Virus record (IMG/VR): IMGVR_UViG_3300030117_004654
Location: 9,373-73,372 of that record
Source of the DNA: a virus
Length of the DNA: 64,000 bases
Direction: 5' to 3' (one strand)
A program made the position numbers and the translations under genes. The notes below the pieces were generated by a model. The model saw only the letters and a list, made by a program, of their open reading frames with translations, did no database searches and was not told the DNA's origin. Below, piece after piece: positions 767 to 31,406 of this stretch. Each line of letters starts with the position of its first letter. The stretch's first letter is position 1.

Positions 767-1000
767 TTAGAATCCTCCCCTGTCAAGAGTATAACTCATT
801 TTTGGTTGCCCCTCATCTCGTTTTTCTTCTATCCTAAATGCCCAATTATCAACTCTAGCCCTTAAGTTTACAATTAAATCATATAATTCGTTTTCGTTTT
901 TGGCATTTTCCATTTTTGTAATAAAATCTTCCAAAAACTTTTTAAAATTGCTCAATTCAAAATACTCTTCATCTTCTTTTAATATATCTTCCCAACTCAT
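767..1000 (-). CDS. WxDILK-tagged small protein
   Basis: 77 residues, beginning with the full tag M-S-W-E-D-I-L-K-E. The tag codons (GAT ATA TTA) differ synonymously from those in other tagged genes, which argues for selection on the peptide. A helical region of about 45 residues (FKKFLEDFITKMENAKNENEL) follows, ending in the SYTLDRGGF motif also seen near the end of the 129-560 product. It is preceded by GGTGATATT, a good ribosome site. Function unknown. Confidence 0.7.
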   Translation of the reverse strand: MSWEDILKEDEEYFELSNFKKFLEDFITKMENAKNENELYDLIVNLRARVDNWAFRIEEKRDEGQPKMSYTLDRGGF

Positions 1001-1009
1001 AATATCACC

Positions 1010-1273
1010 TTAATAGTTGTCACTACTATGAACTAAATTATCTTCCTCATTATATAATTTAAAAGATGAACTGCCATAATTTCTAAATTGCCATTCATTT
1101 GACTCTGAATATTCATCAAATTTCTTTTCTGCCCACTTTTTTGCTTCTTCTAATGTACCGGTAAAAAATTCCTGCTCATCTAAATCGGCCATATCCCAAC
1201 CATGTTTAGTAACTGCTTCTAGAATTAGATAATACTTTTGAGGTTCTCCCTTTAATACATTTTCCCAACCCAT
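1010..1273 (-). CDS. WxDILK-tagged small protein, paralogue of the gene at the left edge
   Basis: 87 residues, starting M-G-W-E-N-V-L-K. The body is a compact alpha/beta-looking domain containing PQKYYLILEA, FFTGTLEEAKKWAEKKF and a C-terminal QFRNYGSSSFKLYNEED. It is clearly related to the partial gene at 1-127. The Tyr/Trp-rich architecture with a TLEEAKKWAEK helix looks like a small globular fold rather than a coiled coil. Function not recognised. Confidence 0.7.
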   Translation of the reverse strand: MGWENVLKGEPQKYYLILEAVTKHGWDMADLDEQEFFTGTLEEAKKWAEKKFDEYSESNEWQFRNYGSSSFKLYNEEDNLVHSSDNY

Positions 1274-1516
1274 TTAATCACCTTTTTTATAATCAGGGCC
1301 ATACACTTTTTGTGCCATTAATAAGTCTACTTTAATAGAGTTATTTTCATCATCAATATAGGTTGAATGAAGTTCTGGACTTAACTCTTCCAATCCCTTA
1401 ACTGTTTCCTTAGAATGCTTTTGAGTATTTTTATAGACAATACCATCCTTTTTTATGTAGAGAGGGAATCCATATTTATCGGTTTTATTTTCCTTTAGTA
1501 TATCTTCCCAACTCAT
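1274..1516 (-). CDS. WxDILK-tagged small protein
   Basis: 80 residues, beginning M-S-W-E-D-I-L-K-E. After the tag comes a short beta-like stretch (YGFPLYIKKDGIVYKNT), then a helical and polar tail ending in KKGD. It directly abuts the gene at 1010-1273, and its start is preceded by a GGCGATTAAT ribosome site. No family is recognised. The early YIKKDGIVY segment could be a small SH3-like or beta-hairpin element, which is speculative. Confidence 0.68.
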   Translation of the reverse strand: MSWEDILKENKTDKYGFPLYIKKDGIVYKNTQKHSKETVKGLEELSPELHSTYIDDENNSIKVDLLMAQKVYGPDYKKGD

Positions 1517-4050: not shown

Positions 4051-5388
4051 TCACTGTAAGTTAGTAATTTTGCCTTGACCCTTAAAGAAGGTACATCCCA
4101 ATTCTCCCATAGTGCGGAATAGACCTCGGTTTCCGAGAACATTGACGCCAAATGGGTTTCCATGAGTAATACCATCCTCGAAGTATTGGGTTGGTTTCAT
4201 AACTGCAAGCCATAGGTGGTCTGTGTCTAAGAACAACATATCGCTGATTGCTGCACCTTGACCTGTTTTAGGCATATCCTTACAAGGAATCATTGGAATA
4301 TCGAAGTATGTTGCAACTCTAAATCCAACTTCTTGGCCTTTAACACCCTTTACGCCTGAGTGAGTAGGAATAATTTCCTTTCTGTCCATAAATCGCTCTT
4401 GGCTCTGCAATAAGTCACCAATTGTCTGAATAGTATCATATCCAGTTAAGATAACCTTTGGAGTTCCACCGTTGGTTCGCAAATTCTGAATTAAATCGTT
4501 TAATCGAGTTAAAGTCAGAGAACGAACACCTGCTGCGTTATAAACACCAAAATCACAAACTGCGTCAATATAACTTGCACCACTCTTTCTTGAGTTGTTT
4601 CCGTAAATTTGTCCAATTTGGTCGGGGGCTGCACCTGCGTTTGCAGAAGCAATTAAAGCACTTCCAACACCAGCAGTTGACATTTCAGTTAATTCTGCAT
4701 TGTTTGAAACAATCTTCATCAATGATGTGTAATTTCGCTCAATGTCACCGTATGAAGCATTATCATAGTGTTCAAGAGGCATAACAATCATCTTTGATTG
4801 AACTTCTGCGTGGAATTTACCCATATCTTCTCTAATTAATGCTCTTAAGTCACCAACACCATCGTCAATTTTAGCCATTTCTGCTGCAAGTTCCGAATAA
4901 TCGAATTGATGAGCAACGATTTTTGGACTCATGTAGAGAGTAGCATATTCTGGTGCAATTGGCTGCAATCCTGTTGAACTCAATGAATGGTTTTCAGACA
5001 CACCACCGATTTCATCAGCATTTGGGGCATCCATAGCGTTATTTGCGGCCCATGTAGTTGTTCCAATACCAAATGCTGCGGAATCTCCGCCCATTGGTCT
5101 TTTTGTCATAACTCTCCAACCACTACTTGTATATGGTCTTTTAGCCAAAATACTGAATGGATTGATTTCTTGATTTAGCATTGACCAAATCTTCTGACCA
5201 TAAACCATGTTATATAGCGAAGATAGGTTTGTTGCTGTTGAACCACCGGCAAGTAGATTACTTGCGTCATGTTGGAAACCACTGTTAATTCCACCAACAA
5301 TTCCACCACCCTTTAGAAGGGTATTTCCACCAGCCATACCGTATGTTGCTGCTTCTAAGTCTTTAATTGTGTTAATATATTTTGTCAT
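4051..5388 (-). CDS. major capsid protein (HK97-like)
   Basis: 445 residues, untagged. The size, its place directly downstream of the prohead protease/scaffold gene, and the content fit an HK97-fold major capsid protein. The content includes a glycine-rich N-terminal region, a long helical spine (KIVAHQFDYSELAAEMAK, ALIREDMGKFHAEVQSKM) and a C-terminal beta-rich region with GNPFGVNVLGNRG. Residues 20-29 read GGNTLLKGGG. If the maturation protease cuts after xLLK, as proposed for other tag-like sites here, this would remove a 26-residue delta-like arm; that is inference. The same NTLLK string occurs at the scaffold N-terminus. Confidence 0.85.
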   Translation of the reverse strand: MTKYINTIKDLEAATYGMAGGNTLLKGGGIVGGINSGFQHDASNLLAGGSTATNLSSLYNMVYGQKIWSMLNQEINPFSILAKRPYTSSGWRVMTKRPMGGDSAAFGIGTTTWAANNAMDAPNADEIGGVSENHSLSSTGLQPIAPEYATLYMSPKIVAHQFDYSELAAEMAKIDDGVGDLRALIREDMGKFHAEVQSKMIVMPLEHYDNASYGDIERNYTSLMKIVSNNAELTEMSTAGVGSALIASANAGAAPDQIGQIYGNNSRKSGASYIDAVCDFGVYNAAGVRSLTLTRLNDLIQNLRTNGGTPKVILTGYDTIQTIGDLLQSQERFMDRKEIIPTHSGVKGVKGQEVGFRVATYFDIPMIPCKDMPKTGQGAAISDMLFLDTDHLWLAVMKPTQYFEDGITHGNPFGVNVLGNRGLFRTMGELGCTFFKGQGKITNLQ

Positions 5389-5425: not shown

Positions 5426-6157
5426 TCAGAACTTTTCCTCCAATCTCTGAATAGTCAAGTGAATATCATTCCAATCCATCTTGGAAATTTCTTCGTATGT
5501 TGGAACATTAAGAGAAGCGATTGCATCTTCTTGCTTCTTGATAGTCATTTCAGCATCATTCTTGAGAGTGTCAAGAAGGTCACTAAATTGCTTCTTTAGT
5601 TCATTAACCTCTGCTCTTGGGTCATAGTTTGCCTTTGCAATTGCTTCGTTCTTTGCATTAACTTCATTATCAAATCGAGATTGGAAACTACGCTTAATAT
5701 CCTCATAAGCAAGTTTTTCCATCTGCTCAGCCTTGAATTCAGCATAGGCTTTTTCAAGGTTTTCTGCACTTAAATCAAGAGTTGGGGTTTCACCCGAATA
5801 AGACTTAACAGTTCCATCAGAACCAATTTGGGCGTGTTTGTTTTGGCCGGGACTTAATTCTTCACCTGCTTCACCTGCTTCCAAATAACCTGTTGGTAGG
5901 TCTTTTTCTCCTTTATAAGTTGATTCAACATCTTCTAATGTTTCCTCTTCTTCCATTCCCAAATCACCCAATTCGGGTGATTCGTCGGCGGATGTCATTT
6001 CATCCATACCTAAATCTTCGTCATCCATATATTCACTTTCTGACATTTGTTCACCTTCTACGGGCATTCCCATACCTTGTTCTTCATCTAATTCTTCACT
6101 TTCTAAATTTTTCAATAGAGTATTTAACTCACTAATTGCTTCACTAATATTTGTCAT
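5426..6157 (-). CDS. nested scaffold protein (internal start in protease gene)
   Basis: An in-frame ATG at 6157 is preceded by AAAGGTGAAAAA, the best ribosome site in this gene. It would yield a 243-residue scaffold alone (residues 180-422 of the fusion). In lambda and other phages an in-frame internal start provides separate scaffold in excess over protease (established for lambda C/Nu3). The product begins MTNISEAISELNTLLK, has acidic Glu/Met/Asp-rich linkers and ends with the helix that carries the M-D-W-N-D-I motif. Inferred from the internal ribosome site. Confidence 0.6.
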   Translation of the reverse strand: MTNISEAISELNTLLKNLESEELDEEQGMGMPVEGEQMSESEYMDDEDLGMDEMTSADESPELGDLGMEEEETLEDVESTYKGEKDLPTGYLEAGEAGEELSPGQNKHAQIGSDGTVKSYSGETPTLDLSAENLEKAYAEFKAEQMEKLAYEDIKRSFQSRFDNEVNAKNEAIAKANYDPRAEVNELKKQFSDLLDTLKNDAEMTIKKQEDAIASLNVPTYEEISKMDWNDIHLTIQRLEEKF

Positions 6158-6694
6158 TTTTTCACCTTTGTCTTGTTTTAGTATATCAAATTTTGCTTCA
6201 GGATTAATTCCTTTTTCACAAATTGTAACTTCATGTAATTCTAATTTACTAATTTCATTGTAGTCGCCTAGTTCTTCATTATTTCGCTTTCGCTTTTCTA
6301 ATGCTTGGCCTCCAATACTAAATGAACGCATCGTACCTTTTCTAATTTCTCGGCTAACTTCTTTTGCTTTTTCAATATCATCTCTTAATTTAATAACAAC
6401 AAAAAAACCAACATCATCTACATCTGTTTTCCAAAGTTTGCCATTTTTATCTCTATATTCTTTAACAACTTCTCCAACTTGTACATTTGAATGATTAGTC
6501 ATTACATTTCTATATTTTGGGTCATTCATATATTTCTTAACCGCTTCACCTAACGCATCTAATGTAATTAAATCATTTTGTTTATCTACTACTTCAATAG
6601 ATGCATAACCACCAATATACAAATCATCTGATTTTAGAATAGAAAAATCTTGAACACTATTACTTACTGTTCTTGCTACTGCACTAGCAGACAT
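5426..6694 (-). CDS. prohead protease fused to scaffold
   Basis: 422 residues from the ATG at 6694, chosen because GGTGATTC lies upstream; an ATG at 6712 overlaps that site. Residues 22-172 form an HK97/U35-type serine protease: GGYASIEVVDKQNDLI, catalytic His68 in TNHSN, catalytic Ser near 124-126 in MRSFSIGG, and the terminal ELHEVTICEKGINPEA strand. Residues 180-422 are an acidic, helical scaffold ending in a helix with KMDWNDIHLTIQRLEEKF. Tag-like strings flank the protease domain: FSILK (17-21) and FDILK (169-173). If they are cleavage sites, the protease would free itself from a propeptide and from the scaffold. The capsid gene follows directly. Confidence 0.85.
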   Translation of the reverse strand: MSASAVARTVSNSVQDFSILKSDDLYIGGYASIEVVDKQNDLITLDALGEAVKKYMNDPKYRNVMTNHSNVQVGEVVKEYRDKNGKLWKTDVDDVGFFVVIKLRDDIEKAKEVSREIRKGTMRSFSIGGQALEKRKRNNEELGDYNEISKLELHEVTICEKGINPEAKFDILKQDKGEKMTNISEAISELNTLLKNLESEELDEEQGMGMPVEGEQMSESEYMDDEDLGMDEMTSADESPELGDLGMEEEETLEDVESTYKGEKDLPTGYLEAGEAGEELSPGQNKHAQIGSDGTVKSYSGETPTLDLSAENLEKAYAEFKAEQMEKLAYEDIKRSFQSRFDNEVNAKNEAIAKANYDPRAEVNELKKQFSDLLDTLKNDAEMTIKKQEDAIASLNVPTYEEISKMDWNDIHLTIQRLEEKF

Positions 6695-9746: not shown

Positions 9747-9988
9747 AGACTTCCCTCCAATTTGGCAACCATAGCATTTATGTCATCCCAACTCATTTTA
9801 GCAATTGTTTCTGAACTTGGTACTCCTGATGCTACTTGCATTTTTGGTCTTGGTGTTTCTGCTTTAACAAAGCCTGATTTCATTAATATGTTTTCATTAT
9901 CAAACACCGTTTCTTCTAACTTGCTTACTTTCTCCACTAATAATTTAAGAATTTCTAGTGTTTCATTTTTTACTTCTTCTTCTGTCAT
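9743..9988 (-). CDS. scaffold-like coiled-coil protein with C-terminal MSWDDI motif
   Basis: 81 residues. The N-terminal 35 residues form a coiled coil (LEILKLLVEKVSKLEETV); a Pro/Gln linker follows. The last 25 residues (PSSETIAK, then MSWDDI, then a KLEGSL end) match the end of the scaffold (PTYEEISK, then MDWNDI, then a RLEEKF end). The shared C-terminus implies both bind the same partner, plausibly the inner face of the capsid protein as in other scaffolds. M-S-W-D-D-I also resembles the first six residues of the WxDILK tag. Overlaps neighbours by ATGA at each end. Confidence 0.7.
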   Translation of the reverse strand: MTEEEVKNETLEILKLLVEKVSKLEETVFDNENILMKSGFVKAETPRPKMQVASGVPSSETIAKMSWDDINAMVAKLEGSL

Positions 9989-10320
9989 TTTTTTCTCAAC
10001 CCCTTGCTTTTAGGATAGACAATCTCACGCAATTGTCTATACGACTCTTCATAATCCTTTCTAAGTTTTGCAGCAGTAGCAATAATATCTAAGTTTTTTT
10101 CAGAAATAGTTTTCATTCGCTTATTCATTTTTTTATCAGACTTAATTAATTCTAAATCTTTCATTAAATCTACAAGTTCACCTAATTTAGTAAAATCTTG
10201 ACCAAAATACTCAGATGGTTCTGCTGCTTGCAGCACCTTCTTCAAATGCTTTCTTTCTTTGTTAGATAGTGAACTTAAAATGTCACTATCAGTTTTAATT
10301 ACATCAAACCATTCATTCAT
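9985..10320 (-). CDS. WxDILK-tagged helical protein
   Basis: 111 residues, starting M-N-E-W-F-D-V-I-K-T-D, a tag variant with Trp at position 4. The rest is predicted all-helical and highly charged (SNKERKHLKKVLQAAEPSEY, LRKDYEESYRQLREIV), ending in a basic GLRKK tail. It overlaps 10317-13097 and 9743-9988 by four bases each. A core or internal head protein is plausible. No homology recognised. Confidence 0.68.
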   Translation of the reverse strand: MNEWFDVIKTDSDILSSLSNKERKHLKKVLQAAEPSEYFGQDFTKLGELVDLMKDLELIKSDKKMNKRMKTISEKNLDIIATAAKLRKDYEESYRQLREIVYPKSKGLRKK

Positions 10321-13304: not shown

Positions 13305-13661
13305 TTATCCCTCCGTAGGAAATGCTTCTTTTAATTTTTGTTTTGCTTGAATAGCCAGATTTTTTTGATTAACAGGGTCAATTGAAGCATTAGCCAATAT
13401 AGATAATGCTTGAACTAATTGCCTCTTTTTTGGACCTCTTGGTGATTGAACCATTAACGACCTAGTGTTTCTCCAAGTTTCTCCAACATCTGAATCATCT
13501 GCACCTGAATCACTTGAACCTGAATCTACAACATCTTGTTGAGCAGTAACATTGACTTTATTATCATCAATTATTTGAGAATCAGGTTTAATCATTCCTG
13601 AAGGATTTTGAATAAATCTGGTATCAAGTTGCATTTGAGTCTTAAGAAGATTAAACCACAT
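13305..13661 (-). CDS. WxDILK-tagged protein next to portal
   Basis: 118 residues, starting M-W-F-N-L-L-K-T. A polar, low-complexity Asp/Ser stretch (DVVDSGSSDSGADDSDVGE) separates the tag from a helical C-terminal part (KKRQLVQALSILANASIDP and KNLAIQAKQKLKEAFP). It lies just downstream of the portal gene, preceded by GGTGATATT. Possibly packaged or part of the prohead core; no family recognised. Confidence 0.68.
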   Translation of the reverse strand: MWFNLLKTQMQLDTRFIQNPSGMIKPDSQIIDDNKVNVTAQQDVVDSGSSDSGADDSDVGETWRNTRSLMVQSPRGPKKRQLVQALSILANASIDPVNQKNLAIQAKQKLKEAFPTEG

Positions 13662-13665
13662 AATA

Positions 13666-15294
13666 TCACCTTGTTTCTGTTCTTCTATCTACATTGTTAT
13701 TTGCCGCTTCTTCTGGTAATCCGGTATTTCTATTCGGTGGCCCCACACTCATGCTAGGTTTGTTTCTATTTGAACCCCCACCTTCAGGAGAATCTTTTCC
13801 TCCCGTTAACGCTTGTTCTTGTAATTGTCCTAATTGTGACGCATCTACATTTGTTCCCGCGTATGGGTCATTTTCTACTTTTTCGTCAGGTGCATCAGGT
13901 TTAGGTGAATCAGGTTGTTCTTTCTTAAATGTAAATTCTCCATCCTCATTCATATCTACAATGAATCCTAGATTTTTAATTGAAGCGGCGATATTAACTT
14001 CTATTTCTCTCTTTCGCATTACAGCGATTTCATCTTCTTCCTCAGATGGTGGCAAAATTAATTTCCATTGTTTGATACCAAACTGCTCTGCTAACCAAGG
14101 AAATACATAAAGATTGTACACATTTTGTGCCATTTCTACTGCACGATTAGTAACAAGAATTTGCATACCTTCATTATTTAATCCACCACTTGCAGAATTA
14201 TCTGCCATAAAGATTTTACTCACACCATAGAAAGCCGCAATTCTATCTCGCAAATCTTCCTTAACTGCAACATAATCCATCTCTTTAAGCGAATCCATAA
14301 ACTTAATCCACTCAACAGAACCCTTCCCATTATCTGCTTCAATACCCATAACAGGAATAAAGTGTTTATCTTCTTCCATCTTTTCTTTAACTGCTCTCCA
14401 AAAAGTTCTCATAGATTCCATGTTTCTAGTCTGAACTGCAAGCAATCCTTTAGGCATACGACTCTTGGTATAAGATGTATTAACATAATTCTCCATAGCA
14501 ATTAAAGTAGTAATGTGATTAAATAATGTCATTACAGGTGATTGACCATATAATCTAGATGGAGAATATTTACTAAAGTGTAAAACTTCACCCTCGATAA
14601 AATATTGTTCTTCACCATGCGCTCTATTAACATAATGAACAGGATAAAGAGTTTCACTAGTTTCAGGATGACATTCATGTGGGTTTTCAGAAATAAACCC
14701 TCTATCATTTAGAGCAGTAAAACCTTTTGTTCCTTTGTCTCCGACTTCATCAGAATAAATAGCCATTGTAACAGGGTCGCCTCTATAAATTTCTTTAATT
14801 CTATGCATGGCTATTTCGCCATTACCATCTAAATAATACTCCTTAACTAATACTAAATAAGCATCATCAATAATATTTAAATCATCTTCTAATTCTTTAA
14901 GAACATCAATGAATAATTGTTTAGAACTATTTACATAGCCACTAATAAAATTCTTAGCATATTCTAATTCTTTTTTACTAGGCTTAGTTAAATCTTTAGA
15001 TAAACACTGTGAGCATTGTTCAACAGGTTTTTCATGTTCGTGACCACAAGTTTTACATTTATTATCAAAAGTTTTTTTCCACTCATAACCTCTTCTAAAG
15101 ACTTCATTTTTTAGTTGAGTAGTACAAGTTCTAGTAATGACAGACTGTTTAGCAATATCATAAAGTAATGCTGTTGATAAAAATAACCCCTGCTCTCGCT
15201 CTTGTATTCCCATTTGAAATACTTTTCTATCTGCGGGTTTAGGAGTTTTCCTTCTCAATAGACTTCTAATAGAAAATCTTCTTTTTTCACTCAT
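13666..15294 (-). CDS. portal protein with zinc-ribbon insertion
   Basis: 542 residues. The order terminase, portal, protease, capsid, the size and the sequence support a portal: a wing/stem-like region with EVLHFSKYSPSRLYGQSPV, the spine helix YDIAKQSVITRTCTTQLKNE, the stem RDRIAAFYGVSKIFMA, and the crown helix with NRAVEMAQNVYNLYVFPWL. An insertion near residues 80-97 has four cysteines spaced CxxC-x10-CxxC, a probable zinc ribbon that is unusual for portals. The last 90 residues are Pro/Gly/Asn-rich and disordered. It lacks the tag, as expected for a vertex component. Start ATG overlaps the stop of the membrane protein at 15291. Confidence 0.82.
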   Translation of the reverse strand: MSEKRRFSIRSLLRRKTPKPADRKVFQMGIQEREQGLFLSTALLYDIAKQSVITRTCTTQLKNEVFRRGYEWKKTFDNKCKTCGHEHEKPVEQCSQCLSKDLTKPSKKELEYAKNFISGYVNSSKQLFIDVLKELEDDLNIIDDAYLVLVKEYYLDGNGEIAMHRIKEIYRGDPVTMAIYSDEVGDKGTKGFTALNDRGFISENPHECHPETSETLYPVHYVNRAHGEEQYFIEGEVLHFSKYSPSRLYGQSPVMTLFNHITTLIAMENYVNTSYTKSRMPKGLLAVQTRNMESMRTFWRAVKEKMEEDKHFIPVMGIEADNGKGSVEWIKFMDSLKEMDYVAVKEDLRDRIAAFYGVSKIFMADNSASGGLNNEGMQILVTNRAVEMAQNVYNLYVFPWLAEQFGIKQWKLILPPSEEEDEIAVMRKREIEVNIAASIKNLGFIVDMNEDGEFTFKKEQPDSPKPDAPDEKVENDPYAGTNVDASQLGQLQEQALTGGKDSPEGGGSNRNKPSMSVGPPNRNTGLPEEAANNNVDRRTETR

Positions 15295-15460: not shown

Positions 15461-15721
15461 TTACCAATCCCTACAAGCCATGCATCTTGGTGAATTATTA
15501 CCGCTCTTACAAGTAGAGCATTTATGTCTTGCTCTAAAAGAACTTCTTCTTTTACCACTTCTTTTACCAGAAACCGTCACACCTTTTTGGCCCCAATGAA
15601 CACGCTTATGTCCACCTTTTCCATCCGAAACACATTTCATCCACTTTTTACCTTTAGAAGTAGATGAAGTTTTTTTAGTTGCTCTAGTGCATCTACCTGC
15701 TTTTAATGTATCAAACCACAT
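15461..15721 (-). CDS. WxDILK-tagged very basic Cys-rich protein
   Basis: 86 residues, beginning M-W-F-D-T-L-K-A. The body is strongly basic (Lys/Arg/Ser/Gly: KKTSSTSKGKKWMKC, GKRSGKRRSSFRARHKC). A C-terminal cysteine cluster CSTC...C..C ends in CRDW. The FRARHxC...CxxW ending recalls small basic proteins common in phage structural clusters. It is a good candidate for a DNA-binding protein packaged with the genome, by the tag plus charge; this is inference. Confidence 0.7.
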   Translation of the reverse strand: MWFDTLKAGRCTRATKKTSSTSKGKKWMKCVSDGKGGHKRVHWGQKGVTVSGKRSGKRRSSFRARHKCSTCKSGNNSPRCMACRDW

Positions 15722-18530: not shown

Positions 18531-19169
18531 TCATTTACCTCCGGGCGGTTTTTGTTCTAAAGAGTAAATAAACTTTCTGTGCTTTTGTCCATATCGAGCA
18601 AGCATTTGTTTTGCTGATTGTGGAAATTTATCTTTATTCCAATCTTTTAATTCTTTTCTTGCAAGCAATTCTAATCTAGTTAACTTATTTTTTTGTCTAT
18701 GAGTTTTTGCCCAACGATTAACATAATTGATAAGTCTAGCAATTTTAGCGGGCATTTCTTTATGTGTTAATTCTTGACTAAGGCCTAGAATATAAGCGAA
18801 CTTATTAAAATCTTGCTTTATTGTGTCTGGATGTTCAAGAAATTCTTTTAATGCAACATAAGGATTTTCAGGAAACATTCCCATATAAGCCACATATTCT
18901 TTCTTTCTATTAGGATGCCAATAAAACTCTTCATCGGCTGCGTCGTGGGCTGCATGAGTTGATTCGTGCATAATCACTCTTTTAACATATTCCATTAATT
19001 CCTTTTCAGTTGGTTCTCTACCCAATTTAGTTTTTACAAAATCATAAATCTTTTTATGATTAATTTGGATATTACTAAATTCTGGCATATTACCCCAAGA
19101 TTCATAATGACCTAATCCTTTAGGTTCATCACTAAAGTCAATATCAACCTTAAGAATATCCCACCACAT
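18531..19169 (-). CDS. WxDILK-tagged HExxH metalloprotease-like protein
   Basis: 212 residues, starting M-W-W-D-I-L-K-V. Residues 60-80 carry MHESTHAAHDAADEE: a zinc-binding HExxH (His68, Glu69, His72) in an appropriate helix (ELMEYVKRVIMHESTHAAHD). A third ligand may be among the acidic residues that follow. The remaining two thirds are helical and end basic (YGQKHRKFIYSLEQ). It lies directly upstream of the terminase gene in the transcript. The tag suggests packaging within the head and delivery to the host or processing in the capsid; both are inference. Confidence 0.7.
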   Translation of the reverse strand: MWWDILKVDIDFSDEPKGLGHYESWGNMPEFSNIQINHKKIYDFVKTKLGREPTEKELMEYVKRVIMHESTHAAHDAADEEFYWHPNRKKEYVAYMGMFPENPYVALKEFLEHPDTIKQDFNKFAYILGLSQELTHKEMPAKIARLINYVNRWAKTHRQKNKLTRLELLARKELKDWNKDKFPQSAKQMLARYGQKHRKFIYSLEQKPPGGK

Positions 19170-19181
19170 AATTATATCCCC

Positions 19182-19718
19182 TTATATCGAAGCCCCTGCT
19201 CTACTTTCTACTAGGAAAATCTCATCTGATTCTATACCGTATTTTTTACCATCTATTGCGGGAGTTTCTTTATCTAATATAACCTGCTCAAAGTCAACGT
19301 ATCTTTCTTCAGGCTTCCAATCCATATCAAGTTCTATCAATTCTCTCTTCTTTTCTTCAGGTGTTTGGTTCTCTAAAAACTCTAATGGGTCACGGATATA
19401 TTTTACACTACCAAATGAACTTAATATTTTACCGTTGTAATTTTCTTTGAACCATTCTATTAATGTTTTAAGATTTTTAGCATAAATAGTTTTACCTACA
19501 CCAACCACAACACCGGTTTTATACCCATCGTAATCGGAATTACTGTAATCAAATTGACTAGAATCAAATGTAACATATTGTCCAGCAGGAACATATGTAA
19601 ATTTCATTCCATATTCTTCTTCTTTTATTTTAATAACTTTATGATTAGGTATAAGAATTCGTTTTTTGGGTTCAGGGTCTTGTCCCCCTCTTCTTCTTTT
19701 CAAAATATCAAACCACAT
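19182..19718 (-). CDS. WxDILK-tagged hypothetical protein
   Basis: 178 residues, starting M-W-F-D-I-L-K-R-R-R. An alpha/beta domain follows: AGQYVTFDSSQFDYSNSDYDG, GVVVGVGKTIYAKNLKTLIEW and ERYVDFEQVIL look like strands around helices. The overlap with 19718-20083 is a single base. No recognisable motif for catalysis. Function unknown. Confidence 0.65.
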   Translation of the reverse strand: MWFDILKRRRGGQDPEPKKRILIPNHKVIKIKEEEYGMKFTYVPAGQYVTFDSSQFDYSNSDYDGYKTGVVVGVGKTIYAKNLKTLIEWFKENYNGKILSSFGSVKYIRDPLEFLENQTPEEKKRELIELDMDWKPEERYVDFEQVILDKETPAIDGKKYGIESDEIFLVESRAGASI

Positions 19719-20083
19719 TATTCATCACCATATGTATATTCATACCAATCCCAATGAACCATATCAAGTAATTCTTCAAAATCTGCCGCTATCTTATCCC
19801 ATTCAACATCTGCTAAAGCATGAGTTTGAGTAAACTCTTCAAGCATTAATTGGTAAGTCAAGCCCATATGAGGCGAATTTAGAATATTATGTAAATTCTT
19901 GGCTAACCACATTTCAGTTTGTTCAGGTGTTATGTTTTTTTCATTAGGATGTGGGTATTCCGGCGAGTCAGGGTCTAAAGCAATTGATAAAAGATGTTTT
20001 GCCATCTCCCCATCTTCAACAAATATCTTACTATACATAGCCTGAGTAGCAGCGTTGCCTGTTTTTAATATATTAAACCACAT
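19718..20083 (-). CDS. WxDILK-tagged hypothetical protein
   Basis: 121 residues from the ATG at 20083, which puts the tag M-W-F-N-I-L-K-T at the N-terminus; an upstream in-frame ATG would bury it. Acidic and helical (YSKIFVEDGEMAKHLLSIA, AWLAKNLHNIL-like segment, DFEELLDMVHWDWYEY). It lies two bases from the gene at 20085-20690. Function unknown. Confidence 0.65.
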   Translation of the reverse strand: MWFNILKTGNAATQAMYSKIFVEDGEMAKHLLSIALDPDSPEYPHPNEKNITPEQTEMWLAKNLHNILNSPHMGLTYQLMLEEFTQTHALADVEWDKIAADFEELLDMVHWDWYEYTYGDE

Positions 20084-23178: not shown

Positions 23179-25458
23179 TCATTCCTCCGTTAAGAACCCT
23201 TCCTTGACTAAATCATCTAATAATTCAGGATATGTAGAATTTATTGCATCCATTTGATTATTTTTAATTTTCTCTAATCTTTTTTTAACAAGCCCTTTTA
23301 TTCCATCTCTAATATTTTCCAAAGCCGTTTGCAAAGTTTTAGAAAAATCATCAACATCACTATCTAATTCTCCATCTAAAATATTTCTTAGTCTTTCTTT
23401 TTCTGGAATCTTTTCTTGATACTTATCATTTAATGTATGAAGAAGTGGTCTTAAAACTTTTTGGTCAGCAACTTCTTTTTCAACCTTTCCTAAAAAATCT
23501 ATCACAGATATAAAATTAGAATTAGATAATTTTAGTTTTTCTTCCGGAGAAGAAGTAATTATTCCATTTGGACCTGTTAAATCTGAGGATGTATAATACA
23601 CATCGAATAAAGTGTATGCTATTGTTTTTTCTAGAGGAGAACCACTTTTAAGTTTATTTGCATCCTTAAATGTGCCTTCTTCTATATTACCAACAAGACC
23701 TTGAAGGTGAAACTCTTTAGTTAAATGCCTATTATCAGGATTACGTCTAAAGGTTCTAAACCTACTTCTTAACGCCCTCCAATTACTAGGTGGATTATCT
23801 AAATATAGATAGTTATGTAACTCTCTAACTATTTCCGAATATTTATCCGAACCTTCAGGTAATTTATACAACCCAACGACCTGTTTTGCACCGCCCTCTT
23901 TGGTCTGTGTGGGGGATTTTTCGCCACCGACCACCCCGAAACCACTGTTCTGACGGCCCTGTTTTTTTGAAATGAAATCAGAACGTTCTTCAGGAGAATA
24001 AGCGCGTAAAAACGCATCTACAAGTTTTTTATTATCGCCTTGAGGGTTCGCTTCTTGAAGTGCCGAGGCCAATAGGTCAATAAAATCAACGAAATCTTTA
24101 GTAACTGAATTTCTAATTCTAGAAATCTTATCCTTCATACTTTGAACATATTTATCTCTAGACTCATTATAGATATTTTTATCTGGACTATTTAATTGAG
24201 CATTAAGAATAGTTTTATATTGTTTTTCATCTAAGTTATCTCTACCAAGTATTGTTAGAATACCGTCATCATCTTTATTACCGGTATTATATTTATTCCA
24301 AGATTGATTAACATAATCTTCTTTTACTGCATCTTCTCGTATAACAATACTAGATAATTCTGAAAACCATTCATTAGCAAGAGTATTTTCTACTTCAGTA
24401 TTTTGTTTCATAATTCCTTCTAGTAGAGGATTTAGCCACATCCTTTGATTTTTTTCCTGTTTACCTTTTAAGAATTTATTTAGACCTAATCCCACCTTTA
24501 AATATCCTCTAATGGGATTGCCTCTAATTTTCTTTTTAGTTGCAAATTTTCTAAGATAAGTTAATGCTTCTCGTGGTGTAATATCATTAACTTGGTATTT
24601 TTTGATTTCTACATCTTGCTTAAGATGGCCAAAGAAAGCCTTAAGTTTTGGAGTATCTTCTGGAACATATTGAATAAGAGTTTGTACTGTTTCATCACCA
24701 AGAGAACTTATTAGTAATACTTTATCTCTTCTTTTTGGTTGTAAACTTTTATAATTTTTAGCCATTAAAGTTTCAATTTCATCCCAATCTGGAGTTTGAT
24801 TTGCCTTCAATGTTTCTGCCGCATCTTTGAGTAAATCTACTAATTGAGCATGGGCTAATTTTTGAGTTTGTGGTGGAGAACTCCTACCACCATGAGTTGA
24901 ATCATGTTCTTTGAACTTCTCCATCAATGGTTGTAATTTAACATAATTCTCTTTAACTAAATTTCTATTTTCTTTAAATTCGGCCCTATCAGTTTTTCTC
25001 TCAGAAAATGGAATTAAATCTTTTGCCGCAGAATTTTCATTCCATTCAAAGAATTTTTTATAAGTAATAGTTGGCTGCATAAATCCAGCAAAAGCATACT
25101 TATCAAATGTTTTTTCAAACAATTGTAGTTGTAAATCAAATGATATATCTGTAAGAAGTTTCCTCCACTTAGAATTATTTCTTCCGGGCAATTGTAATTT
25201 AGTAACAGATTTTTCTGACTTAAGCATCTTGTTTTCTTTAGTCATCTCGTCTAACCAATCTCTTGCATACTTAACAAAAAAATCTACTTCCTTTTCAGAA
25301 TGCATTTTAATTAATTCTAGAATATAACTATTAATAAGATTATACCAATTAGGGTTTATTTTTTTAGCCTTACGCCAAATTTCAGGGGCGGCATCATAAA
25401 CCTCTTTCAATTTAGAAAGATTAGTTTTTTCTACCTTTAGAATATTTGCCCAATTCAT
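23179..25458 (-). CDS. WxDILK-tagged very large helical protein
   Basis: 759 residues, starting M-N-W-A-N-I-L-K-V-E-K. Helical almost throughout, with many Lys/Glu pairs and a Gly/Thr/Gln linker at about 510-540 (FGVVGGEKSPTQTKEGGAKQ). The linker DNA is visibly richer in G+C than its surroundings, which may mark an inserted or fast-evolving piece. Its size class and neighbours (829 and 663 residues) recall large internal or ejection proteins of other head-tailed viruses, which is an analogy only. Confidence 0.65.
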   Translation of the reverse strand: MNWANILKVEKTNLSKLKEVYDAAPEIWRKAKKINPNWYNLINSYILELIKMHSEKEVDFFVKYARDWLDEMTKENKMLKSEKSVTKLQLPGRNNSKWRKLLTDISFDLQLQLFEKTFDKYAFAGFMQPTITYKKFFEWNENSAAKDLIPFSERKTDRAEFKENRNLVKENYVKLQPLMEKFKEHDSTHGGRSSPPQTQKLAHAQLVDLLKDAAETLKANQTPDWDEIETLMAKNYKSLQPKRRDKVLLISSLGDETVQTLIQYVPEDTPKLKAFFGHLKQDVEIKKYQVNDITPREALTYLRKFATKKKIRGNPIRGYLKVGLGLNKFLKGKQEKNQRMWLNPLLEGIMKQNTEVENTLANEWFSELSSIVIREDAVKEDYVNQSWNKYNTGNKDDDGILTILGRDNLDEKQYKTILNAQLNSPDKNIYNESRDKYVQSMKDKISRIRNSVTKDFVDFIDLLASALQEANPQGDNKKLVDAFLRAYSPEERSDFISKKQGRQNSGFGVVGGEKSPTQTKEGGAKQVVGLYKLPEGSDKYSEIVRELHNYLYLDNPPSNWRALRSRFRTFRRNPDNRHLTKEFHLQGLVGNIEEGTFKDANKLKSGSPLEKTIAYTLFDVYYTSSDLTGPNGIITSSPEEKLKLSNSNFISVIDFLGKVEKEVADQKVLRPLLHTLNDKYQEKIPEKERLRNILDGELDSDVDDFSKTLQTALENIRDGIKGLVKKRLEKIKNNQMDAINSTYPELLDDLVKEGFLTEE

Positions 25459-27446
25459 GACTGTTCCTCCGGTTCAGGCTCATCAGGTTTCATTTCTTCT
25501 TCCTTTTCTTCTTCCGCAAAAGTTTCTTTAGGCGGTTGAGTTGTTTCATCACTAATTGTTAATTCTTCTTCAGGTTCTTTTTCTTCAGGTTCTTCTGCCT
25601 GTTGTTCTTTTTCTTCAGGTGTTGGGTCAGGTGTTGGGTCAACTGCTCTTTCATGTGCATTTGATACCCAATCGCGTTCTGCTGCATTATATTTCCATTG
25701 ACCATCAGGAGATAATTCGCCGTCTTTAGGGGCAGGTTTACCCATACTTCCTTCTTTCCAATCTCCCCCTTCTTGTGTTTCTGATTCAGGGACTTCTCGC
25801 AACGGTGTCCTTTCTCGTAATCCATATTTCTGCTTAAATTCGCCTAATTTTCTTTTATGCCAAGGTGTAGTTTGTCGCATTACTTGTTTTTTATTTCTTT
25901 GCAACATCTCTCTCCAATCATATAAATCTCTAGTTGGCATTTTAAATTCTGCCTCATTTTCTGGAAGTGCTTCGCCTTCTGCCCCAAATTTCTTTTCCCA
26001 ATTAATAGGGATTTTTCTATCTAAACTTCTTATTGTTTTTCTCCAACCTTGAGGTCTTTCACTTTCAGCAACATCCATAATTTTCTTTTTTTGTTCAACT
26101 GCGTCAATAATCTTTTTCTTCTTTCTTTCTCTACCTCTTTGGATAGCACTGTCTTGGTCAGCAACATTACCCATCATACGCATTTCTTGCTCAAATCTTT
26201 TTTGATGCCATTTATCAGAACCGGGAGTATATTTAGAAGTTTTTAGTTGTTCTTTCCATCTACCAAGTTTTTCTTTACCAGCACCATATAATTCTTTACC
26301 CTTTTCTTTACCGGTATCATATAATTCTTTACCTGCATCAAAAACCATTTGAGCAGCATCACCTTGAACATTTCTCATTTGCGTTCTTGCTGCTGGGCCT
26401 AATCTTTCTTCTCTTTCTCTACGTTGTGCTTCCAACATATCTCTACGTTCATTTTCATCAGTAGCCTCATCAAACGCTTGATTAAACTCATCTCTTCTTA
26501 ATTTATCTTGCCACCTATCATAAGCCTGTTTATGATGTTCTTTACCCCTTTGTTCTTTAGCAGGTTTATCTACCATTTCTCCTCTTAGGGCTTCTAATAA
26601 TCTATTTCTATTTTGTTCTTGAGAAGAAGTTCTTTTATCAGAAACATCCCTAAATGCTTCTGTTAATCTTTCTAAATTTTTAGGTTGTGATGCTATTGTT
26701 TTTTCACGTAATTGTTGCAATCTTGATTTAGGAACAGGTTTATCTAATAACCTTTCTACTGCTGTTTTACCCCTTGGTTTATCAACTAAAGCAGATAAAG
26801 CAGGTGTTTTTTCCTTTCTCCATTCTTCGGGAGATAATGATGCTAATCTCTCTTTTTCTGCAATTTCTTCATCTTCTCTTTGAATATCTTCTTCAATTTC
26901 TGTAAGCCACTCATCGCCTACTTTATTTCTTCTTTTAGTATCTGCACCACGACGGGCGGCTTCTGAGCGTTTATCGGCTAATGCCTCTTGTTCGCCCTCT
27001 TCTACTAATCTACGTTGTTCTAGAATATCTTCTCCGCGAAGACGATTTCTTTCCTCTTCTTTTTCTCTTCTTCTTGCAGACTCTATTCCTCTTTGTTCTA
27101 ATTTGGCTTGTTCCGCACGTTCACCTTCAAGGAATTTTTCTCTATTTGCTGCATCTAATTCTAATCCACTTAATTGTTGTTCTCCTCTTGAACGTGGACC
27201 AAAACCTAATGCTCTTATAGCCCTTTGTGACCAAGTTTCTTTAGGAAGTTCTCCTTCCCCTGACCTTGCTCTTTCCATTCTTTCTTTTCTTTCAGCAGCA
27301 ACTCTTTCTTTTTCTGCTTCTCTAGCCATATAGTCACTAAATTCATCTTCAGTCATATCTGAATCAGATGCTTCTTGAATTCTTCTCATTGTATCTTGAT
27401 GAGCCCTTCGGCTTTTTTCGATGTTTAATGTATCTTTCCAAGTCAT
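25455..27446 (-). CDS. WxDILK-tagged Arg/Glu-rich low-complexity protein
   Basis: 663 residues, starting M-T-W-K-D-T-L-N-I-E-K, a degenerate tag. It is dominated by Arg/Glu/Lys/Gln heptad-like repeats (EKERVAAERKERMERA, EQRGIESARRREKEEERN), several KELY(G/D)xGKEK repeats at about 365-390, and a Pro/Glu-rich acidic tail (KPDEPEPEEQS). Such composition suggests a long flexible rod or a nucleic-acid-associated scaffold rather than an enzyme. Overlaps neighbours by four bases on both sides. Confidence 0.62.
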   Translation of the reverse strand: MTWKDTLNIEKSRRAHQDTMRRIQEASDSDMTEDEFSDYMAREAEKERVAAERKERMERARSGEGELPKETWSQRAIRALGFGPRSRGEQQLSGLELDAANREKFLEGERAEQAKLEQRGIESARRREKEEERNRLRGEDILEQRRLVEEGEQEALADKRSEAARRGADTKRRNKVGDEWLTEIEEDIQREDEEIAEKERLASLSPEEWRKEKTPALSALVDKPRGKTAVERLLDKPVPKSRLQQLREKTIASQPKNLERLTEAFRDVSDKRTSSQEQNRNRLLEALRGEMVDKPAKEQRGKEHHKQAYDRWQDKLRRDEFNQAFDEATDENERRDMLEAQRREREERLGPAARTQMRNVQGDAAQMVFDAGKELYDTGKEKGKELYGAGKEKLGRWKEQLKTSKYTPGSDKWHQKRFEQEMRMMGNVADQDSAIQRGRERKKKKIIDAVEQKKKIMDVAESERPQGWRKTIRSLDRKIPINWEKKFGAEGEALPENEAEFKMPTRDLYDWREMLQRNKKQVMRQTTPWHKRKLGEFKQKYGLRERTPLREVPESETQEGGDWKEGSMGKPAPKDGELSPDGQWKYNAAERDWVSNAHERAVDPTPDPTPEEKEQQAEEPEEKEPEEELTISDETTQPPKETFAEEEKEEEMKPDEPEPEEQS

Positions 27447-27583: not shown

Positions 27584-27663
27584 TATAATCCTTTTCCCCA
27601 TACTGTATATCTTGGCAAATACTGTGCGTATTTAGATAACCATGTTGCTAATTTATCAATCAC
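27583..27663 (-). CDS. possible very small protein with GTG start
   Basis: 26 residues reading from a GTG at 27663: V/M-I-D-K-L-A-T-W-L-S-K-Y, ending in GKGL. It bridges the gap between the 27656-27970 gene, which it overlaps by 8 bases, and the ATG at 27583 (TAATG). The amphipathic, Trp-containing sequence is plausible but short. Without homologues this remains a guess. Confidence 0.35.
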   Translation of the reverse strand: MIDKLATWLSKYAQYLPRYTVWGKGL

Positions 27664-27970
27664 TTTCTTCGCCTAACCAATTAAGTAAAATTTTCTTATT
27701 TGCTTCTTTGTCTGCAAATCTACCGTGTAAGGAAGGGGCTAAATCATATTCCCTAAGCATCATTTGAATTTGTTTAAGCACCATTCTAGCGGTTTCAGGG
27801 TCTTCTGCTGACATATATGTTTTTATCATATTCAAAAGAACAGGTCGCATTCTTTCTTTCATAGCCGCCTGAACTTCTTTTTCTGCTTCTCTTACATCTT
27901 TTGGTGCAAATCTTCTTGCATCAGATATAGCATCCTTTGTGCTAATTTTTAATATATCTTCCCAACTCAT
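27656..27970 (-). CDS. WxDILK-tagged small helical protein
   Basis: 104 residues, beginning with the full tag M-S-W-E-D-I-L-K-I. A three-helix-like body follows: VREAEKEVQAAMKERMRPVL, ETARMVLKQIQMMLREY and a C-terminal NKKILLNWLGEES. ATGA overlap with 27967-28431. It lies next to the terminase small subunit gene. Function unknown. Confidence 0.7.
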   Translation of the reverse strand: MSWEDILKISTKDAISDARRFAPKDVREAEKEVQAAMKERMRPVLLNMIKTYMSAEDPETARMVLKQIQMMLREYDLAPSLHGRFADKEANKKILLNWLGEESD

Positions 27971-28431
27971 TGTAATTCCTCCTTAATTTCATCTATCCGT
28001 CTTTTTAATTCAGACATTTCTCTTTCTCTAGATGCCCCATACCTTTTGTAATCAACATTATTCTTACGTTTAGTATGTGAATGAACATTTTTAATCCTAT
28101 CATATTCTTTTTGAAGACGTTTTAACTCTCTCATTAACGGGTCACGTTTAGTAGATTCTATTAATTCTCTAGCCCTAACGTCAACATCACTTTTAAGTGT
28201 CTCTGCGGTTTCTAAACTTTTATCCGGTTCAATTCTTTCAAACTTTGTCCATAAACTGGGATTAGTTCTTCCATCAAACGGGTCATCATATAAATTAGAA
28301 AACCAATATGTTCCATTTATTTTATGAAATAAGTAAACAGTTTTACCTGAAGAATTTGCTAATTTTTGTGCTTCTGCTCTAGTAGAATCTAAATCGCTAC
28401 TTTCTTTTCTAAGAATATCTTCCCAACTCAT
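27967..28431 (-). CDS. WxDILK-tagged hypothetical protein
   Basis: 154 residues, starting M-S-W-E-D-I-L-R-K, with tag codons GAT ATT CTT AGA that differ from other copies. A small beta-containing domain (TVYLFHKINGTYWFSNLYD) is followed by a charged coiled coil (RELKRLQKEYDRIKNVHSH, REMSELKRRIDEIKEELQ). ATGA overlaps join it to the terminase small subunit gene upstream and the tagged gene downstream. Function unknown. Confidence 0.68.
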   Translation of the reverse strand: MSWEDILRKESSDLDSTRAEAQKLANSSGKTVYLFHKINGTYWFSNLYDDPFDGRTNPSLWTKFERIEPDKSLETAETLKSDVDVRARELIESTKRDPLMRELKRLQKEYDRIKNVHSHTKRKNNVDYKRYGASREREMSELKRRIDEIKEELQ

Positions 28432-29090: not shown

Positions 29091-29233
29091 TCGTGGTCCA
29101 CCTTTACAATAAATTTAGCAATCTTCATTAATTTGTTCCAACCCTCTTCATCATCATTATCAAAATGTTCAAGCAATAAACTAATATGACCACGCAATTC
29201 TTTATTTGCTTTACAATAATCCATTTTACTCAT
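29087..29233 (-). CDS. small hypothetical protein
   Basis: 48 residues, MSKMDYCKANKELRG at the start, acidic centre (EHFDNDDEEGWN) and a C-terminal KIAKFIVKVDHE. It fills the gap between 28428-29090 and 29230-30507 with ATGA overlaps at both ends, which strongly supports it as a real coupled gene. Function unknown. Confidence 0.55.
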   Translation of the reverse strand: MSKMDYCKANKELRGHISLLLEHFDNDDEEGWNKLMKIAKFIVKVDHE

Positions 29234-30507
29234 AAGTAATCTCTCCATAAATGTTGTGACCATGATTTTTTAACATTACCTCCACCTTCAGGCGGTTCAT
29301 CAGGTAATGCCCATCTTGGAATAGTTAGCCCTTCTTGCTTTGCTCGTTTTAATTCAGCATTAAATAATTCCTTTCTTTTTTCTTGGACTCTAGCAGCATC
29401 GAACAAAAATATACCTGTCTTCCCATCGTGCTTGAAAGTATCTAAAGTATAACGACCTAAATCCATTTGAGAAATAATAGTTCTAATTAATGAATTAGAA
29501 ATCCCTTGAATATAAAATGATTCTAATTGTCCTGCCAAATCTGCATTACCTGAAGCACGTAAAACCAAGTCACTTAGTTTTTCATCATTAGGGTCAATAA
29601 TAAATTTAGTTTCCATTAACTTACGACGGTAAGCATTAAAGTTAATCTGCAATCTTTTGAATGGGGCATTAGCACTATGATAAACTGATTGGTCTTTAAG
29701 AATAACTTGCATTGTTTCAATTACTGCTGGAACTTGTTGTAATAATTCCCTTTGTCCTCTACCTTTAATCTGTAATTCTTCTAAAGGTTGTTCCTCAATC
29801 TCTTCTTCAAGTTTTCTCAATAAAGGTAATAGCCCTGTTGTAATAACATCACCGTCACCATCTGCAAAAAGGGCTTGCCAAAAAGGAGGCTTTGCTGTAT
29901 TAGGACTTCTCTTAATCCAATCATCACCCATTTCAATATTAGGCTCATTTTTACCTTTAACTTCCTCTCTATACTTTACATAGGTAGGAGTTCTATAATG
30001 ACCATAAACAGTTTCCCATTCATCTACACCATCAGCAGTTAAAGATTTAGGAACAGTAAATGGAATATTTCTAGGATTAGTTTTCTCATCTCTCTCAATC
30101 TCTTCTAAATCTTCAATGAAATCTTCTATCGCTAAAAGTTCCTTTGTCTTAAATGCATGAACATCCCCAATCATTTCCATTACTGAATCAATAATATCCA
30201 TAGAACCCTGTCTTTCAGGTTGTCCGGCTCTTTGATAACCACTATCAATATGTCTAGTAATATGTTCTAACAAACTCCTACTACCATGTTTACCTGTAAC
30301 ACCAATAGAGTTCATAGTCTTACTTCTACAAGTATTATACCATGCAGTAATTTCTTTTTTAATTTTATTTAAAGAACTAGTAGTAATAACTTTTACTTTA
30401 TCGCCACTATCTAATGTTTCTTCAGCAGCACCTTTCTTAGCCTTCTTAGTAGACTTTACAATAAAGTCCTCTAAAGCATAAGACTTTAGAACTTGTTGCC
30501 ATGCCAT
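29230..30507 (-). CDS. WxDILK-tagged hypothetical protein
   Basis: 425 residues from the ATG at 30507, giving M-A-W-Q-Q-V-L-K-S-Y, a tag variant. Helical with a Thr/Ser-rich early part. Central segments include SGYQRAGQPERQGSMDIID and KPPFWQALFADGDGDVIT. The C-terminal region (GRYTLDTFKHDGKTGIFLF) looks globular. Overlaps the small gene at 29087. Function unknown. The size suggests an enzyme or structural domain, but no motif is recognisable. Confidence 0.63.
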   Translation of the reverse strand: MAWQQVLKSYALEDFIVKSTKKAKKGAAEETLDSGDKVKVITTSSLNKIKKEITAWYNTCRSKTMNSIGVTGKHGSRSLLEHITRHIDSGYQRAGQPERQGSMDIIDSVMEMIGDVHAFKTKELLAIEDFIEDLEEIERDEKTNPRNIPFTVPKSLTADGVDEWETVYGHYRTPTYVKYREEVKGKNEPNIEMGDDWIKRSPNTAKPPFWQALFADGDGDVITTGLLPLLRKLEEEIEEQPLEELQIKGRGQRELLQQVPAVIETMQVILKDQSVYHSANAPFKRLQINFNAYRRKLMETKFIIDPNDEKLSDLVLRASGNADLAGQLESFYIQGISNSLIRTIISQMDLGRYTLDTFKHDGKTGIFLFDAARVQEKRKELFNAELKRAKQEGLTIPRWALPDEPPEGGGNVKKSWSQHLWRDYL

Positions 30508-30512
30508 AATAA

Positions 30513-30773
30513 TCACTCAAATCCTTCATACATACTACAATAACCTTTTTCATTAACATCAACAAAATTTAATTGACATTCTCCATAGGCATTATGTTTA
30601 CAGGTTCTTGCTTCACACTTTCTAACCTTACATTTATCTTTTCCACCAAAACCTGCTTTTTGGTTTTTGGGTGGTTTATCATAAGATGCTGCTTTATCTT
30701 CTCTACGTTGACGCATCTCACGTAAATCATATTCACGTTCAGATTTTGGGTGCAATTGTTCTTTCCAACTCAT
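30513..30773 (-). CDS. WxDILK-tagged Cys-rich (DUF1540-like) protein
   Basis: 86 residues, starting M-S-W-K-E-Q-L-H, a weak tag. After a charged helix come four to six cysteines in the order CKVRKCEARTCKHNAYGEC, then CSMY near the end. The C-x(3)-C-x-A-x-x-C-x-x-N-x(4)-C pattern resembles the DUF1540 metal-binding module. It probably binds zinc. Overlap of four bases with 30770-31057. Role unknown. Confidence 0.6.
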   Translation of the reverse strand: MSWKEQLHPKSEREYDLREMRQRREDKAASYDKPPKNQKAGFGGKDKCKVRKCEARTCKHNAYGECQLNFVDVNEKGYCSMYEGFE

Positions 30774-31057
30774 ATTACACCACCTGTCCTAGTTACTTCA
30801 TAAACCACTTTATTATCACCTTGTGATTTTAATTTAAAATGATATACTTCATAATAATCTCTACTCTCTTCTTCAATTTTAAATTCCTTAATAGGTTTAC
30901 CTTTTTTCGCTCTCACAATTTTATCGGCTTTACCTTCTACGCCACTAAAAAGTCCCTCTTCAATTGGATTATTTCTATCATATACCCATTCTCCGATTGC
31001 ACCTTTAGGGCCGGGTTTAAAATTAATTCTTGATTTTAATATGTCTTCCCAACTCAT
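30770..31057 (-). CDS. WxDILK-tagged hypothetical protein
   Basis: 95 residues from the ATG at 31057, which places the complete tag M-S-W-E-D-I-L-K-S at the N-terminus (GGTGATTAAA ribosome site). A basic loop (INFKPGPKGAIGEWVYD) is followed by a predicted beta-rich C-terminal half (YYEVYHFKLKSQGDNKVVYEV). The GPKGxxGEWV string suggests a small beta-barrel fold. Function unknown. Confidence 0.68.
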   Translation of the reverse strand: MSWEDILKSRINFKPGPKGAIGEWVYDRNNPIEEGLFSGVEGKADKIVRAKKGKPIKEFKIEEESRDYYEVYHFKLKSQGDNKVVYEVTRTGGVI

Positions 31058-31058
31058 T

Positions 31059-31406
31059 TTAATCACCAATTCTATCATATAGTGGCTGAATATCTTCTTC
31101 AGCATGATTAAGACCTATTATTGGATAGTCTATTGTTTCCATTGGTAATGTAGCAAAATTTTCTAATTCCCTCATAATTTTTTTTATTTTATTCACATCA
31201 TTAATTGGGTCTAATTTGTAAAGTGGATTTGTTATTTTATCAAATTGTTTCGCCCAATAAGCATCGCTACCATCTGAATACATTTCAAACGTTTGAATGC
31301 CATAACCTTCAAGTTCATTGTAGAGCCAATCCTTCCAAAGTTTTCTTATCATTTCCTCCAATGGAGGATATTCGGCATCTGTTTTCAATATATCCTTCCA
31401 ACTCAT
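31059..31406 (-). CDS. WxDILK-tagged hypothetical protein
   Basis: 115 residues, starting M-S-W-K-D-I-L-K-T. Contains aromatic helical segments (LEEMIRKLWKDWLYNELEGYG) and a C-terminal part with AEEDIQPLYDRIGD. Separated by one base from its tagged neighbours on both sides. Function unknown. Confidence 0.68.
   Translation of the reverse strand: MSWKDILKTDAEYPPLEEMIRKLWKDWLYNELEGYGIQTFEMYSDGSDAYWAKQFDKITNPLYKLDPINDVNKIKKIMRELENFATLPMETIDYPIIGLNHAEEDIQPLYDRIGD

Follow-up and report, generated by a model that had tools for sequence, protein, structure and literature searches.

The window, that is, the whole 64,000-nucleotide stretch of DNA analyzed here, is part of a virus record of 91,865 bases. 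Its gene content, rather than a taxonomic label, identifies the virus as a magrovirus, one of the tailed viruses that infect marine group II archaea. The minus strand carries the late genes over about 1 to 34 kb of the window, and the plus strand carries the early and replication genes. The portal gene (13666-15294), the protease gene (5426-6694), and the major capsid gene (4051-5388) lie on one strand, with the protease gene placed between the other two, as expected for a prohead protease of the Peptidase_S78 family. The principal features of the protease and capsid genes are as follows:

5426-6694, minus strand: prohead protease with a Peptidase_S78 domain at residues 28-178, continuing into a scaffold region from about residue 180 to 422, from Pfam, PHROG, and homologs
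6632-6646, minus strand: FSILK (residues 17-21), probable first S78 edge strand with invariant Lys21 and possible K/S self-cleavage site, from conservation and the halovirus alignment
6176-6190, minus strand: FDILK (residues 169-173), last S78 strand, ending in Lys173, and possible self-cleavage site, from conservation and the S78 alignment
4051-5388, minus strand: major capsid protein (SU10_MCP/PHROG 24667), from profile matches
5311-5319, minus strand: capsid LLK (residues 24-26), candidate maturation site LLK/G, from conservation in 125/125 proteins

The protease reading frame (6694-5426) codes for a protein of 422 aa, in which residues 28-178 match Peptidase_S78 (PF04586; E value of 4e-9; 37.2 bits against a curated cutoff of 21) and which also matches PHROG 23555, head maturation protease (E value of 8e-17). 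Our set of homologs comprises 158 distinct proteases from two clades; column conservation was assessed in 44 aligned homologs. H68 and S126, invariant in 35 homologs and aligned in haloviruses as well, presumably form the catalytic pair, a role that we assign from knowledge of the family. The protease domains of the haloviruses HVTV-1 and HCTV-1 are approximately 32% identical to that of the window; neither the protease domain nor HK97 gp4 retrieved a relevant relative in sequence searches of the PDB, and a search for PF14550 in 200 genomes of one bacterial phylum gave no match. AlphaFold2 models of the protease-scaffold protein and the capsid protein had low confidence, the scaffold helices excepted; hence, the strand positions in the protease are based on the family alignment.

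Many of the late genes around the head genes code for proteins that begin with a short tag, which we defined from N termini as a W at position 2 to 5 followed by any two residues, [IV], [IL], and K. It takes the form M-x-W-x-x-[IV]-[IL]-K or, on late proteins, M-x-W-x-[DNE]-[IV]-[IL]-K. The tagged genes of the window are as follows:

767-1000, minus strand: tagged, MSWEDILK
1010-1273, minus strand: tagged, MGWENVLK
1274-1516, minus strand: tagged, MSWEDILK
9985-10320, minus strand: tagged, MNEWFDVIK; most widespread tagged family, with 24 members
13305-13661, minus strand: tagged, MWFNLLK
15461-15721, minus strand: tagged, MWFDTLK (degenerate)
18531-19169, minus strand: tagged, MWWDILK
19182-19718, minus strand: tagged, MWFDILK
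19718-20083, minus strand: tagged, MWFNILK
23179-25458, minus strand: tagged, MNWANILK
25455-27446, minus strand: degenerate tag, MTWKDTLN
27656-27970, minus strand: tagged, MSWEDILK
27967-28431, minus strand: tagged, MSWEDILR (degenerate)
29230-30507, minus strand: tagged, MAWQQVLK
30770-31057, minus strand: tagged, MSWEDILK
31059-31406, minus strand: tagged, MSWKDILK
31408-32922, minus strand: tagged, MSWENIIK; second, internal SWFDALK near the C terminus
32919-33563, minus strand: tagged, MWTDILK
33594-33911, minus strand: tagged, MNWMDILK

Within the window, the tag is present in 19 of the 42 late genes, a few degenerate forms included, against 0 of about 50 early genes (Fisher's P of about 2e-8, with the genes counted by hand), and no tagged gene occurs in the remainder of the record. 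As for the pattern W..[ILV][ILV]K, 116 unique instances are N terminal, and a single one lies elsewhere in 183,041 residues. At the DNA level, the tag pattern was found 127 times on the late strand versus twice on the other strand in 11 records from the clade that includes the window, and 14 records of the sister clade yielded one stray match. None of 759 sister-clade genes near the protease codes for the tag. We also considered a hidden N-terminal [ILV][ILV]K tag in the sister clade, but the 27 distinct strings among these 759 genes, versus approximately 40 expected at the background rate, show no enrichment. As the codons of the tag vary synonymously, we rejected the possibility that it is a DNA-level signal. 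Altogether, the tag is found on 79 protein families, all from one clade and encoded on the late strand, between which no similarity was detected apart from the tag itself. Pfam searches with ten of the proteins, one of which has a degenerate form of the tag, recovered no family. A text search of the literature for the tag found no paper, and the words "N-terminal," "motif," and "tag" are all absent from the text of a 2023 survey of magroviruses. As a side observation, the internal SWFDALK of the protein encoded at 31408-32922 gives it the appearance of a fusion of two tagged genes.

The original prediction held that FSILK and FDILK are tag-like sequences placed precisely at the start and end of the protease domain. 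Both motifs are indeed found at residues 17-21 (6646-6632) and 169-173 (6190-6176), and both lie at the edges of the Peptidase_S78 match, although only FSILK is outside it, FDILK being contained within residues 28-178. Their conservation, like that of the capsid site described below, is beyond chance. At the N-terminal site, all 158 distinct proteases have [ILV][ILV]K with S, A, or G as the next residue, and the C-terminal site is Fx[IV]LK in 151 of the 158, the other 7 having FDILK, FKILK, or FRIIK with a change nearby. In the 44 aligned homologs, Ile19, Lys21, Phe169, Ile171, Leu172, and Lys173 are invariant. The resemblance to the tag did not hold up. Asp or Lys replaces the invariant tag Trp five residues before the Lys at these sites, neither of which is N terminal, and the sister clade, which practically lacks tags, retains ILK at both ends of the protease as well as LLK in the capsid protein. 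Moreover, Lys21 is aligned with a Lys in haloviruses, and among 43 S78 proteases of bacterial phages and prophages, 27 have a Lys in the column of Lys173 and several have an aliphatic-Lys-[AS] sequence at the first strand. We therefore ruled out FSILK and FDILK as copies of the tag. FSILK probably forms the first edge strand of the S78 fold and FDILK its last, a family feature that bacterial phages have too. As they sit where S78 domains generally begin and end, the edge strand explanation covers both.

These strands might nevertheless also be cut. There is precedent for self-processing of prohead proteases, in that the C-terminal propeptide of SPN3US gp245 is cut off by the protein itself (PMC7411985) and T4 gp21 undergoes C-terminal self-processing, with an N-terminal cut suggested as well (PMC9026906); a literature text search for the self-cleavage position of the HK97 protease gave nothing useful. 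For the magrovirus protease, a cut at Lys173 is conceivable but somewhat doubtful, and one at Lys21 is slightly more doubtful. The residue following the Lys is Q, E, M, H, or R at the C-terminal site (151 proteases counted) and E, K, A, S, R, and others in the tags, which makes the case for cleavage at FDILK and in the tags less convincing than that for the capsid protein or the N-terminal end of the protease.

The capsid protein has NTLLK at residues 22-26. The linker around this motif (residues 18-58) is mostly freely variable and has many indels, but in 125/125 distinct capsid proteins the column of Lys26 has an entropy of 0, the two preceding residues are aliphatic, and the following one is A, Q, S, T, or G. 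An invariant LLK island in a variable arm looks as a processing site would. Separately, residues 4-17 (5338-5379, minus strand), with the pattern YINTIxDLExxTYG, show much stronger conservation than the linker after them, and this N terminus may itself dock to the scaffold.

Known maturation cleavages offer a framework for interpreting this site. HK97 capsid chains in the PDB start at residue 104, directly after Lys103 (K103/S104), and the T5 pb8 sequence reads HLK159/A160, where we take K159/A160 to be the exact bond that is cleaved. T5 pb8 loses about 160 residues (PMC11313276). Measured cuts fall at R128/L129 in phage phi12 and at K87/Q88 in the Ccm protein of SaPIbov5, the authors pointing to a basic P1 residue (PMC8569155). 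Phage P1 cleaves after Glu120 (PMC9024508), so that not every prohead protease has cut sites with a basic P1. The capsid proteins of HVTV-1 and HCTV-1 have [MV]SK/AD at the position of the sister-clade LLK/AD, a correspondence made by eye on the downstream sequence common to them, and the protease domains of these haloviruses end in VSK/A. HK97 gp4, T5 pb11, and the HVTV-1 and HCTV-1 proteases resemble the magrovirus protease in sharing a Pfam domain, in adjoining the capsid gene, and in edge strands that often end in Lys, and the known relatives cut after a basic residue. Unlike them, the magrovirus protease is fused to a scaffold that probably has an internal start of its own, its sites read ILK rather than having other residues before the Lys, and its specificity is putative. 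A Lys-specific maturation protease that cuts after [IL][IL]K would fit both the basic P1 residues of the known HK97-type (S78) sites and the extreme conservation of LLK, and of all that was originally predicted, the capsid LLK as a cut site is the strongest part. Judging from these sequence patterns, the capsid protein is quite probably cut after Lys26.

A reading without any cleavage, in which FSILK and FDILK are structural strands, the capsid LLK is a packing element of the N-terminal arm, and the tag is purely a binding peptide, draws on the frequency of Lys-ended edge strands in S78 proteases (27/43 at the last position) and on the conserved YINTIxDLExxTYG segment before LLK, which could stay in the shell. 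We consider it unlikely in view of the isolation of the invariant LLK in an indel-rich linker and the cuts made at a basic P1 by relatives with S78 proteases. At the other extreme is the full form of the original prediction, namely, that the tag, FSILK, FDILK, and the capsid LLK are a single signal and that the protease cuts them all and frees itself at both ends. All of these elements end in an aliphatic pair plus Lys that is invariant in 125 to 158 sequences, and the processing of SPN3US gp245 and T4 gp21 noted above fits such self-release. It is, however, rather improbable as a whole: the residues after the Lys vary with the context, the protease sites are fold strands common to bacterial S78 proteases, and the protease and capsid sites persist in the nearly tagless sister clade.

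The scaffold region downstream of the protease domain has its own distinctive features:

5426-6157, minus strand: probable separate scaffold protein starting at Met180, as an in-frame nested gene, from a start codon in 149/149 homologs
6162-6166, minus strand: Shine-Dalgarno-like GGTGA ahead of the internal start of the scaffold, kept across codon phases
5456-5479, minus strand: scaffold C-terminal MDWNDIHL (residues 406-413), proposed capsid-docking helix, from M and W invariant in 44/44 and a predicted helix
9743-9988, minus strand: small scaffold-like protein of 81 aa whose C terminus MSWDDINA (9773-9796) repeats that of the scaffold

Met180, six residues beyond FDILK in the window, corresponds to a start codon in all 149 distinct homologs (ATG in 147, TTG in 1, and GTG in 1); TTG and GTG are both alternative start codons, and each stands behind GAGGTGA. 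A strict Shine-Dalgarno word precedes the site in 70% of 146 homologs versus 4.7% of the other internal Met codons in these genes, which served as controls; the word persists even though its codon phase changes (GGT GAA versus AAG GTG AAA). These signals indicate that the scaffold is very probably translated on its own from Met180, in which case no cut at Lys173 is needed to produce it. Similarly, the scaffold gene Nu3 of phage lambda is nested in the protease gene and is expressed from an in-frame internal start; unlike that system, this one belongs to an archaeal virus, and its nested scaffold is inferred from sequence alone. The scaffold start was also predicted to carry a related xLLK signal. 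The sequence ELNTLLK is present at residues 189-195, but residue 195 is a Lys in only 11/44 homologs; we accordingly dismissed it as a cut site and regard it as a chance match in a coiled coil.

At its other end, the scaffold terminates in M-[DS]-W-[NSA]-[DE]-[ILV]-[HN], with M and W invariant in 44/44 homologs, and this block is predicted to be helical with fair to good confidence (AlphaFold2 pLDDT of 71 to 89). In tailed phages, the C-terminal helix of the scaffold commonly binds the capsid protein. The scaffold terminus is similar to the tag, the likeness being limited to the first half of the motif because the scaffold has H or N where the tag has L. Among 2,283 proteins (608,212 residues), M[STDNEG]W.[DEN][ILV] matched 212 times at C termini, 54 times at N termini, and 4 times elsewhere; of these 4, two are protein starts and two are in a protein of 123 to 124 aa with a scaffold-like end. 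If the tag copies the docking helix of the scaffold, a tagged protein would be carried into the prohead, and from these motif patterns the tag probably serves as a head address. Alternatively, it might bind some other late factor, such as the tail, the membrane, or host machinery, with the likeness to the scaffold arising by chance. The lack of recognized domains in the tagged proteins is compatible with such a target, but we think this improbable given the near restriction of the motif to scaffold C termini and tags and the clustering of tagged genes around the head genes, with none in the record outside the window.

The comparison drawn earlier with the short capsid-targeting propeptides processed by T4 gp21 is apt. 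In the T4 capsid targeting sequence, the N-terminal part targets the protein and residues 8 and 10 govern its processing (PMC9026906). Like this sequence, which is found on the internal proteins IPI to IPIII and Alt, the magrovirus tag is a short N-terminal peptide on otherwise unrelated late proteins and would, if both of its putative halves are correctly assigned, combine a docking half with a protease motif after it. Unlike the T4 sequence, with its (L/I)xE end recognized by gp21, the tag has W..[IV][IL]K without a terminal Glu, is spread over about 79 families rather than a handful, resembles the scaffold C terminus, and is only putatively a packaging signal. Lacking the (L/I)xE end, it would work like a T4 capsid targeting sequence but is not a member of that class. 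Cleavage after its Lys is plausible from the motif but, on balance, uncertain. In phage P1, the N-terminal 30 residues of DarB are enough to direct a reporter to the head interior (PMC9024508); unlike the P1 Dar proteins, which have no common consensus, the magrovirus tags have a strict motif. Two tagged late proteins, encoded at 18531-19169 and 32919-33563, contain the zinc peptidase-like motifs HESTH and HEVTH, respectively, without a Pfam match, and these are possibly packaged enzymes.

The best overall explanation, to which we assign a probability of roughly 0.6, combines S78 edge strands at the protease ends, a cut at the capsid LLK, and a tag acting as a T4-like targeting sequence. It is built on the sequences, their conservation, the clade distribution of the tag, and the internal start signals, from which we infer each cleavage and binding event. 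Under this explanation, the S78 protease would cut the N-terminal arm of the capsid protein after the Lys of LLK, as its HK97 and T5 relatives do, releasing the conserved 26-residue N-terminal peptide. The M-x-W-x-[DE]-[IV] half of the tag would copy the C-terminal helix of the scaffold and dock the protein in the prohead, after which the ILK end may be cut, an arrangement that would then resemble the T4 capsid targeting sequence. The protease may free itself at Lys21 and Lys173, the scaffold being independent of this through its Met180 start. Still more tentatively, and with more doubt than confidence, we propose that one clade joined the docking helix of the scaffold and the cut motif of the protease into a portable eight-residue head address, which, placed on dozens of unrelated proteins, would load them into the head, cut them free, and probably deliver a large cargo into marine archaea.

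The head maturation and protein cargo of magroviruses, which are very abundant viruses of marine archaea, are apparently unstudied at the protein level. The cut rule proposed here, [IL][IL]K, is open to testing, and a tag this strict would let packaged magrovirus proteins be predicted from sequence alone, besides providing a simple peptide with which heads could be loaded with foreign proteins. The tag also hints at a route by which the docking end of a scaffold could give rise to a capsid-targeting signal.

Two minor observations concern the early region. Many early proteins encoded on the plus strand at 36138-59122 end in EEE or DEEE, probably owing to overlap between the stop codon and a GGAGG-type ribosome site that serves the following gene. 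By eye, the segment 53878-55643 of this archaeal virus contains a GroES-like gene and, after it, a gene for a GroEL-like chaperonin.
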